Below are positions 1,494-2,977 of a stretch of 28,313 nucleotides of DNA, piece after piece. Each line of letters opens with the position of its first letter. Position 1 is the first letter of the stretch. The notes under the pieces are model-generated. The model ran no database searches. It was not told the DNA's origin and was given only the letters and a program-made list of their open reading frames with translations. A program made the translations under genes and the position numbers. The DNA is from a virus: IMG/VR virus record IMGVR_UViG_3300028596_000053, positions 1 through 28,313 of that record. One strand, given 5' to 3'.

Positions 1494-1994
1494 CTACAGC
1501 CCGATGTCCTCCGATGCGGCGTCGGTCCACTTGTCGGCCCAGTCGACTTCGCGAGGCAGCTGTGGTCTGGCGTACTCGCTCGTGACGGGGTTGAGATAGC
1601 GGATCGCGAGCCCGAGGATCGCGGCAGGGTGGCGCTCCCGATACAGGGAGAAGATCGTGCCTGGCTCCTGGTTCGTGCCCTCCGTTGTGTTGCAGGATCG
1701 ACAGAGCCAGCCGCGCACGAGACCCGTCGCGTGGTCGTGGTCGCAGACGAGGTCGCTCATCCGCCCGCAGATCGCGCAGCGGCCGTTCTGCCAGCGGGCC
1801 AGGACACTGCCGGCGTCGCCGAGAAGGGCATCTGCAGCGCGCTCCATGTCCCAGAGGACTCCGGCCTGTCCCGGCGTGCAGCCCATACGCTCGGACTCCG
1901 CGAGGAACTTCTGCCGGATATCCTCCGCGGTCGGCAGTTCGGTGGGCCAGCCCCAGCACACAGGCGCGGGCGCATCTGGACGGCTCTCGCTCAC
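1494..1994 (-). CDS. Endonuclease VII-like HNH nuclease (166 aa)
   Basis: The core is CAICG (73-77), CDHDHATGLVRGWLCRSCN (84-102): two CxxC knuckles (C73/C76 and C98/C101) around the DHDHxTGxVRGxLCxxCN signature of the recombination endonuclease VII family (phage T4 gp49 type, a His-Me finger fold). This family cleaves branched DNA such as Holliday junctions, although many short phage members are simply DNA nucleases. About 70 helical residues precede the core and a 60-residue tail (Trp-rich, DWADKW) follows. The ATG overlaps the stop of the upstream recombinase gene in an ATGA arrangement (1991-1994), so the two are translationally coupled. The pairing suggests a joint role in recombination or resolution, but that is inference. 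Confidence 0.82.
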   Translation of the reverse strand: MSESRPDAPAPVCWGWPTELPTAEDIRQKFLAESERMGCTPGQAGVLWDMERAADALLGDAGSVLARWQNGRCAICGRMSDLVCDHDHATGLVRGWLCRSCNTTEGTNQEPGTIFSLYRERHPAAILGLAIRYLNPVTSEYARPQLPREVDWADKWTDAASEDIGL

Positions 1995-2578
1995 TTCCCC
2001 TCCTTCTTGCGGGCGTTGGCGTCGGAGCGGTTGAGGTGGCCGTAGACCGTGGTGCGCGGGACGCTGAAGAGGTCGGCGATCTCCTGCACGGTCTTCTCGC
2101 GCTTGTCGTAAAGCTCCTGAGCGAGCGCGGCCTGCTGGTCGGTGAGCCTTGGGCGGCGCCCGCCGACACGGCCACGGGCTCGTGCGGCAGCGAGCCCATC
2201 CATCGTGTTGGCGTGGATGAGTTCACGCTGGAGCTCCGCCATGACGCCGAGCATTCCGAACATCGCGCGCCCTTCAGGCGTCGCGGTGTCGATGCCCTGC
2301 TCGATGATGTGCAGCCCGACTCCCCGCTCCTTCAACTCGGCGCCGAGGTTGACGAGATGGAGGAGCGAACGAGAGATGCGGTCAAGACGGGTCGCCTTGA
2401 GGGTGTCTCCTTCACGGAGTCGCTTCAGGAGGATGTCGAACTCTGGCCGGGACGCCTTGGCGCCGCTGGCGTAGTCGATGTGGATGTTCTTCTCGTCGAC
2501 GCCCGCCCGCTGGAGGGCGTCTATCTGGTGATCCGGGTTCTGGTCGGCGGTGGAGACCCGGGCGTATCCGAAGTCCAT
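1991..2578 (-). CDS. Small serine recombinase, resolvase/invertase family (195 aa)
   Basis: MDFGYARVSTADQNPDHQID carries the catalytic Ser9 in the YARVST motif. LKATRLDRISRSLLHLVNLG (about 79-98) carries the conserved active-site arginines, and GRAMFGMLGVMAELQRELI is the long dimerisation (E) helix start. ARARGRVGGRRPRLT leads to a C-terminal helix-turn-helix (about 145-185) with VQEIADLFSVPRTTVYGHLN. The length of about 195 aa fits Tn3/gamma-delta resolvases and Hin/Gin invertases rather than large serine integrases. Upstream are repeated TTCTCGACA sequences, one overlapping its own start codon, which may be recombination or autoregulatory sites. There is no convincing Shine-Dalgarno; a TAAGGT box 7 nt before the ATG suggests a leaderless start. 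Its substrate is unknown; multimer resolution and local inversion are both possible. Confidence 0.9.
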   Translation of the reverse strand: MDFGYARVSTADQNPDHQIDALQRAGVDEKNIHIDYASGAKASRPEFDILLKRLREGDTLKATRLDRISRSLLHLVNLGAELKERGVGLHIIEQGIDTATPEGRAMFGMLGVMAELQRELIHANTMDGLAAARARGRVGGRRPRLTDQQAALAQELYDKREKTVQEIADLFSVPRTTVYGHLNRSDANARKKEGK

Positions 2579-2698
2579 GTCGAGAACCTTACACGCAGAC
2601 TGTTAACCGTCATAGATTTTCGACACGCGTTCTCGACAACAACTTCCTGCGACGATAGGCTCGTTGACGAGATGACGGCAGACGGTCGTTTCTCGACA
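2578..2698. repeat. Four TGTCGARAA half-sites at the recombinase promoter
   Basis: TGTCGAGAA occurs at 2578-2586, and its reverse complement TTYTCGACA at 2617-2625 (TTTTCGACA), 2630-2638 and 2690-2698 (both TTCTCGACA). Three copies are identical and one has a single change. The TGTC-first 9-mer resembles the half-site pattern of Tn3/gamma-delta res sites (consensus beginning TGTC). The first copy overlaps the recombinase ATG (2578). The elements do not form a textbook three-subsite res, so function is inferred. Confidence 0.55.
2586..2613 (-). promoter_or_regulatory. Probable leaderless promoter of the recombinase operon
   Basis: On the minus strand, ATGACG (2613-2608) and TAAGGT (2591-2586) are separated by 16 nt, and the -10 ends 7 nt before the ATG at 2578. 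The promoter lies among the TGTCGARAA repeats, so recombinase binding there would be expected to repress it. Confidence 0.4.
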
Positions 2699-2726: not shown

Positions 2727-2757
2727 AGGGCCCCGCCTCACGTGGAGGCAGGGCCCT
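2727..2757. terminator. Hairpin AGGGCCC...GGGCCCT
   Basis: AGGGCCC (2727-2733) pairs with GGGCCCT (2751-2757). After one mismatch, the inner GCCTC (2735-2739) pairs with GAGGC (2745-2749), leaving a 5-nt loop. It is downstream of the minus-strand gene at 2792-2977 and upstream of the recombinase promoter, so it would insulate the recombinase operon. Confidence 0.7.
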
Positions 2758-2791
2758 ACGCGTGCGGATCGCAGCCCGCCTGTATGGCATG

Positions 2792-2977
2792 TTATCGAGA
2801 GCTACGCCCCGCAACTCCGATGCCGGGGACGTGGGTTGTCGTCCGCTCGGGGCGCCACAGAACGATGCAGGGAAGGCGCGGAACGCCTCCCTGCTTCTCG
2901 ACTTCGTCGACAAGGCGACACAGGACGCGCGAGTGCTCCTGTTGCACGGACCGAAGAAGGCGATCGCGGAGGCTCAT
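2792..2977 (-). CDS. Possible small hypothetical protein (61 aa)
   Basis: MSLRDRLLRSVQQEHSRVLC continues through RLVDEVEKQGG to a Pro/Arg-rich end. It has a basic amphipathic helix followed by an irregular tail, with two cysteines. It sits alone between two strong hairpins (3007-3042 upstream and 2727-2757 downstream), the layout of a monocistronic gene. Third-position bias is modest, and neither a good ribosome binding site nor a clear promoter precedes the ATG (GAGG lies only 1 nt away). An overlapping minus frame (2802-2984) is a weaker alternative. I do not recognise the protein. Confidence 0.45.
   Translation of the reverse strand: MSLRDRLLRSVQQEHSRVLCRLVDEVEKQGGVPRLPCIVLWRPERTTTHVPGIGVAGRSSR

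Follow-up and report, generated by a model that had tools for sequence, protein, structure and literature searches.

The 28.3-kb window analyzed here (positions 1 to 28,313 of IMG/VR record IMGVR_UViG_3300028596_000053) represents part of the genome of an uncultured phage and carries, on its minus strand, the gene of a small serine recombinase preceded by a dense cluster of short repeats. These repeats can be explained as six half-sites that would together form the 121-bp res recombination site of a Tn3-type serine resolvase. The same DNA would also act as operator and promoter of the resolvase gene. We put the probability of this reading at roughly 85%; like all conclusions on the res site, the enzyme and the exchange events described below, it rests on sequence. 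In addition, comparison of related phages provides evidence, at the level of sequence, for the exchange of phage arms at a resolvase site, and phage mosaicism at one junction thereby becomes directly testable.

The first-pass annotation had reported three exact copies and one near copy of a 9-mer within 121 bp, and their coordinates are confirmed. Exact copies of TTCTCGACA/TGTCGAGAA are located at 2578-2586 (-), 2630-2638 (+) and 2690-2698 (+), while a copy with one mismatch, TTTTCGACA, is found at 2617-2625 (+). As also described there, one copy covers the recombinase start (2578-2586 shares one base, the A, with the resolvase ATG, the gene running from 2578 to 1991 on the minus strand), one copy opposes the other three, and those at 2617 and 2630 are 13 bp apart. 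Such clustering is far above chance: the exact 9-mer has only these three copies in the whole window, and none of 300 order-1 Markov simulations yielded three exact copies within 121 bp. For any 9-mer, three exact copies in 121 bp arose 0.05 times per simulated window; in the real window, this 9-mer alone has three non-overlapping copies in a span of that length. Two elements had been overlooked, namely the diverged right half of a 26-bp site (TGCCGTCA, 2673-2680), of which the copy at 2690-2698 is the left half, and a third head-to-tail half-site, TGACGGTTAAC, starting at 2612.

Read on the minus strand, the predicted res site begins with the crossover site I (2673-2698), a 26-bp imperfect inverted repeat with the halves TGTCGAGAAACGA and CCGTCTGCCGTCA and the central dinucleotide AC at 2686-2685. 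This is the sole match to site I in the window, with 0.05 expected. A 34-bp spacer (2639-2672), the length of which is kept in relatives, leads to the accessory half-sites DR1 (TGTCGAGAACGCG, 2626-2638), DR2 (TGTCGAAAATCTA, 2613-2625) and DR3 (TGACGGTTAACAG, 2600-2612), which follow each other head to tail with a period of 13 bp. DR1 was assigned by repeat match and conservation, and conservation also marks DR3. The opposed half-site IR4 (TTCTCGACA, 2578-2586), a predicted operator, completes the array; it lies over the predicted transcription start and touches the start codon.

The relatives comprise 13 IMG/VR contigs with resolvases of 69-96% identity, together with 80 bacterial loci fetched with a resolvase alignment and five plasmid loci; the isolated phages in INPHARED contain no relative above 60% identity. 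In close relatives, approximately 155 bp upstream of the resolvase gene are conserved, and the repeats, whose absence from relatives retaining the gene had been proposed as a refutation, are present. Site I and the head-to-tail array were both recognized at 47 of 69 loci, which are carried by actinobacterial phages, plasmids and Tn3-family transposons. The geometry is tightly kept: 47-48 bp separate the centre of site I from DR1 in 44 loci, the DR period is 13 bp, the spacer measures 34 bp in 21 and 35 bp in 23 of the 47 loci, DR3 to the end of IR4 spans 34-35 bp in 51 loci, and in most loci no more than 0-2 bp lie between IR4 and the start codon. Conserved cores are TGTCG..AAACG in site I and GTCG in the accessory half-sites. 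Across the 69 loci, self-identity of the array reaches 0.48 at lag 13 versus about 0.23 at other lags; relatives of approximately 50% identity give a weaker signal (0.32-0.33 at lags 13-14) with different half-site sequences. The centre of site I varies, with AC in 22, AT in 11, GT in 10, AA in three and TT in one of the 47 loci. An inverted 26-bp crossover site and its accessory half-sites are thus kept as a unit upstream of about 50 related resolvase genes, which bears out the unusual res site considered in the first-pass annotation. Within the spacer (2639-2672), the motif GCAGG just before DR1 is kept in many loci and contains no TGTC half-site; it is possibly the site of an accessory bending protein, a role that an HU/IHF-type protein has in Sin-type resH. 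At several loci (L009, L029, L032, L061 and L066), site I or the greater part of the array is lost and mainly gene-proximal half-sites are left.

A scan with the sigma-70 consensus found no promoter, and it was the comparison of loci that revealed a leaderless signature. A TANNNT box with a gap of 6-7 bp to the start codon occurs 52 times among the 69 loci, and a Shine-Dalgarno-like motif is present at just six of the 69. In actinobacteria, such a spacing of the -10 box sets the first transcribed base at or beside the AUG, and the resolvase mRNA is on this basis predicted to be leaderless. In the window, the predicted -10 box of this promoter, TAAGGT (2586-2591, minus strand), stands 7 bp before the ATG. 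Since IR4 separates the -10 box from the AUG, self-repression would be expected, and the resolvase probably represses its own gene via this half-site. The autorepressor array that had been suggested as an alternative to a res site may hence be the same DNA, with its last half-site between the predicted -10 box and the leaderless start.

The resolvase itself (1991-2578, minus strand, 195 amino acids) consists of a catalytic domain followed by a C-terminal helix-turn-helix domain (Resolvase, PF00239, 3e-41; HTH_7, PF02796, 3.6e-5) and is assigned to PHROG 125, DNA invertase. Its best solved relatives are Gin (136 bits) and gamma-delta resolvase (97 bits), with Sin at 30 bits. Residues Y5, R7, S9, R44, D66, R67 and R70 are invariant in 11 aligned sequences; S9 and the residues surrounding it align with Gin, and the catalytic serine and arginines are intact. 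In a protein tree, the enzyme clusters with phage sequences. A Tn3-type transposase (TnpA) lies within the flank at 25 of 85 cellular resolvase loci, and a search of 381 kb of phage DNA, the window among it, gave no TnpA match with the C-terminus of a Streptomyces TnpA as query. Because TnpA stands near many cellular copies and because of the grouping in the tree, the phages probably acquired the resolvase/res module from a cellular Tn3-family pool.

In this reading, site I (2673-2698) would be the target of one resolvase dimer, with Ser9 cutting at its central AC (2686-2685), while further subunits would occupy the head-to-tail half-sites DR1 to DR3 and, at the ATG, the opposed IR4. The substrate could be two copies of the phage genome joined head to tail, i.e. 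a dimer, a tandem prophage or a fusion generated by homologous recombination. By wrapping two res sites together, the accessory half-sites would ensure that only directly repeated sites recombine, which would release monomers. Binding to the accessory array would also cover the -10 box and the start of the leaderless mRNA and keep the resolvase scarce. If the joined genomes came from different phages, the same reaction would swap their arms at site I. We infer protein binding, the position of cleavage and repression, as well as multimer resolution as the selected role, from the DNA and protein sequences. By activity, a resolvase recombines direct repeats on supercoiled DNA and not inverted or intermolecular sites. 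Directly repeated res sites are the substrate of known resolvases, with res upstream of the gene (PMC9943657, PMC12217951). Several points weigh against the proposed res site and its role. The accessory sites II and III of Tn3 are inverted dimer sites, unlike the array found here, which can for this reason not be confidently assigned to known subsites. A resolvase of 50% identity (L119) is preceded by nearly the site I of the window, so that the TGTC/TGAC hybrid site by itself is no proof of exchange. In addition, the left end of the window is incomplete, so that its own integrase is out of view.

A Hin/Gin-type invertase, with the repeats as part of an invertible tail-gene segment, would agree with Gin as the top-scoring solved relative (136 bits), with the PHROG name and with the adjoining tail genes. 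Yet only a single site I exists in the window and in every related contig with a match, which rules out a simple inversion switch within the available sequence. Moreover, every repeat falls within the promoter region, and what is conserved instead are accessory half-sites with res-like spacing. The inversion site that had been entertained in the first-pass annotation is hence not upheld, and an invertase is very unlikely. The exact switch of left flanks at site I could alternatively suggest that the recombinase acts as integrase of the phage, with the array as its attP and the differing left flanks as attL and attR states. However, late phage genes lie left of site I in both states, and several related phages have a tyrosine integrase about 5 kb away. 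A related Streptomyces virginiae prophage with an 85% identical resolvase (approximately 29.1-88.8 kb of contig 26) is bounded by its own 60-bp direct repeats of 90% identity. As this prophage ends at other repeats and contains res and resolvase intact in its interior, the resolvase is probably not the integrase. Although no integrase was recognized in the same prophage, which leaves a small opening, we regard an integrase/attP pair as just as improbable as an invertase. The overlap of the gene-nearest half-sites with the predicted promoter and start would also fit an array that is an autorepressor region only, its recombination function having been lost; this is improbable as well, if slightly less so. 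With inversion and integration disfavoured, the classical role of a resolvase remains, the separation of directly repeated copies.

Beyond this role, genome halves appear to have been traded between related viruses exactly at the crossover point of site I by resolvase strand exchange. The clearest pair, L001 and L002, encodes identical resolvase proteins. Rightwards of the site I centre, the two are about 99% identical (97-100%) over 1 kb, after which similarity falls off. On the left, nothing aligns beside the site and only 175 bp do so in 7 kb; the first mismatch there is the base adjoining the central AC. A breakpoint at the predicted cleavage dinucleotide is the expected outcome of resolvase-mediated exchange. 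L010 and L013 are about 98.7% identical over the compared flanks and differ in the left half-site and approximately 78 bp beside it. Other pairs with right sides of at least 88% identity mostly show no relationship in their left flanks once the 13-bp half-site is passed. The phage breakpoints were read from metagenome assemblies, whereas the flank pairs from transposons and plasmids mostly come from sequenced isolates. A hybrid site I (TGTC on the left, TGAC on the right) was considered as proof of exchange, an argument weakened by the near-identical site I of L119.

The breakpoints might instead mark the edge of a conserved block combined with ordinary homologous or illegitimate recombination. 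No other DNA is as well conserved between these phages as the res-resolvase block, and similarity has for this reason to end somewhere near site I. Nevertheless, L001 and L002 match perfectly from the centre to the right, and to the left their second base already differs; had homologous recombination taken place within the block, a more diverged stretch (about 87%) would be expected beside site I. For the exchange part of the reading, to which alone it applies, we consider this explanation unlikely though still worth serious attention. Separate molecules were recombined roughly a thousand-fold less well by Tn3 resolvase (PMC9943657). Given this inefficiency of the intermolecular reaction, a two-step route is more likely for the exchange, in which genomes are fused by another route and then resolved at res. 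As a precedent, an exchange of toxin-antitoxin modules at res site I has been proposed for Tn3-family transposons (PMC7157771).

The res junction separates the late (structural/lysis) module from the remainder of the phage genome, and a second element is found close by. The 19-bp element CTCTCGATAACATGCCATA (2783-2801, minus strand), about 85 bp left of site I, is present as a single copy in each of 54 IMG/VR contigs (L150-L202 and L018) with the conserved continuation TCGCGGGC; the isolated phages of INPHARED gave no match to the 19-mer region. At this second site, the dyad CTCTCGATA-ACATGCCA-TATCGCGGG looks like the core site of a tyrosine recombinase with an 8-bp spacer. Within 6 kb after the element, 38 of the 54 contigs encode a tyrosine recombinase, four a large serine integrase and four a small resolvase. 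Its left and right flanks assort independently. L018 and L161 are 99.3% identical over at least 7.0 kb left of the element and unrelated from 6 bp past it, where the right-hand res/resolvase modules stem from different resolvase families. In one lysogen, element and recombinase are located 8-9 kb inside the prophage; the element is internal and single-copy and is hence not the integration site there. Tentatively, resolvase and res in these temperate actinophages may serve, or be kept, as a module-exchange junction, different phage arms being joined through strand exchange at site I, and the second, unrelated site may function likewise, although we consider this doubtful overall. If true, these phages would carry dedicated site-specific shuffling points.

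In comparison with known systems, the res site is a variant that, judged by its layout, fully matches neither the Tn3 nor the Sin type. It shares with Tn3/gamma-delta the enzyme family, the position of res upstream of the gene, the total length of about 120 bp (114-120 bp in known res sites) and the order of its parts, with an inverted site I distal and accessory sites proximal, overlapping the promoter. As in a Tn3-type site I, inverted half-sites flank a 2-bp centre upstream of the gene. In contrast, site I measures 26 instead of 28 bp, the promoter is predicted to be leaderless, and three head-to-tail half-sites and one opposed half-site replace the two inverted dimer sites of Tn3 (34 and 25 bp). 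Inverted pairs equivalent to sites II and III are absent; only DR3 and IR4 could form an inverted pair of 34-35 bp. Nor was TnpA, which a Tn3-family transposon would encode, matched in the phage DNA searched with the Streptomyces TnpA C-terminus. Head-to-tail accessory half-sites are known from site II of Sin, and, as in the Sin/beta systems (resH, six), the stretch that separates site I from the accessory part could hold a bending protein (PMC2428073). Yet the resolvase, with 136 bits to Gin and 97 to gamma-delta as against 30 to Sin, is far nearer to the first two, and its res comprises 121 bp with four accessory half-sites as opposed to 86 bp with two in the Sin type. The phage invertases Hin, Gin and Cin resemble the enzyme in catalytic domain, size and 26-bp crossover site, but here a second inverted site is missing and accessory resolvase half-sites are present. 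With the exchange between Tn3-family transposons (PMC7157771), the breakpoint at the site I dinucleotide and the differing flanking modules are shared, whereas the partners here are temperate phages and the junction is that of late module and remaining genome. No description of this res layout or of phage res exchange was found in the open-access literature. A layout that combines a Tn3/Gin-like enzyme with Sin-like half-sites and a predicted leaderless, autoregulated promoter is widespread in Actinobacteria.

Some further features accompany these junctions. Small reverse-strand open reading frames of at least three unrelated families begin a few tens of base pairs left of site I (L002:3610-3864 (-), L003 and L007) and differ among L002-L008 and L021; no Pfam match was obtained for the three tested. 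An integron-like cassette insertion of these reading frames at site I was rejected, as the far end of the reading frame lacks a second half-site (L002:3600-3620). Right of the 19-mer in L173, L174, L192 and L193, a palindrome, ACATCTATGCCCATAGATGT, adjoins the gene of a large serine integrase and is likely its attP. Several of these phages also harbor candidate Ku-like genes (MPRTIWSGAISFGLVTVPI...) in the same right-hand module (L173, +1716..2588 of the motif; G140, 2869283-2870278). In the window, capsid, tape-measure and endolysin genes lie on the same strand, and its source is probably a temperate actinophage of the Streptomyces type, the temperate lifestyle being judged from its relatives. 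Left of site I, a strong hairpin (2727-2757, minus strand; 71-nt fold of -42.5 kcal/mol, z -4.1) is the probable terminator of the late (tail/lysis) operon.
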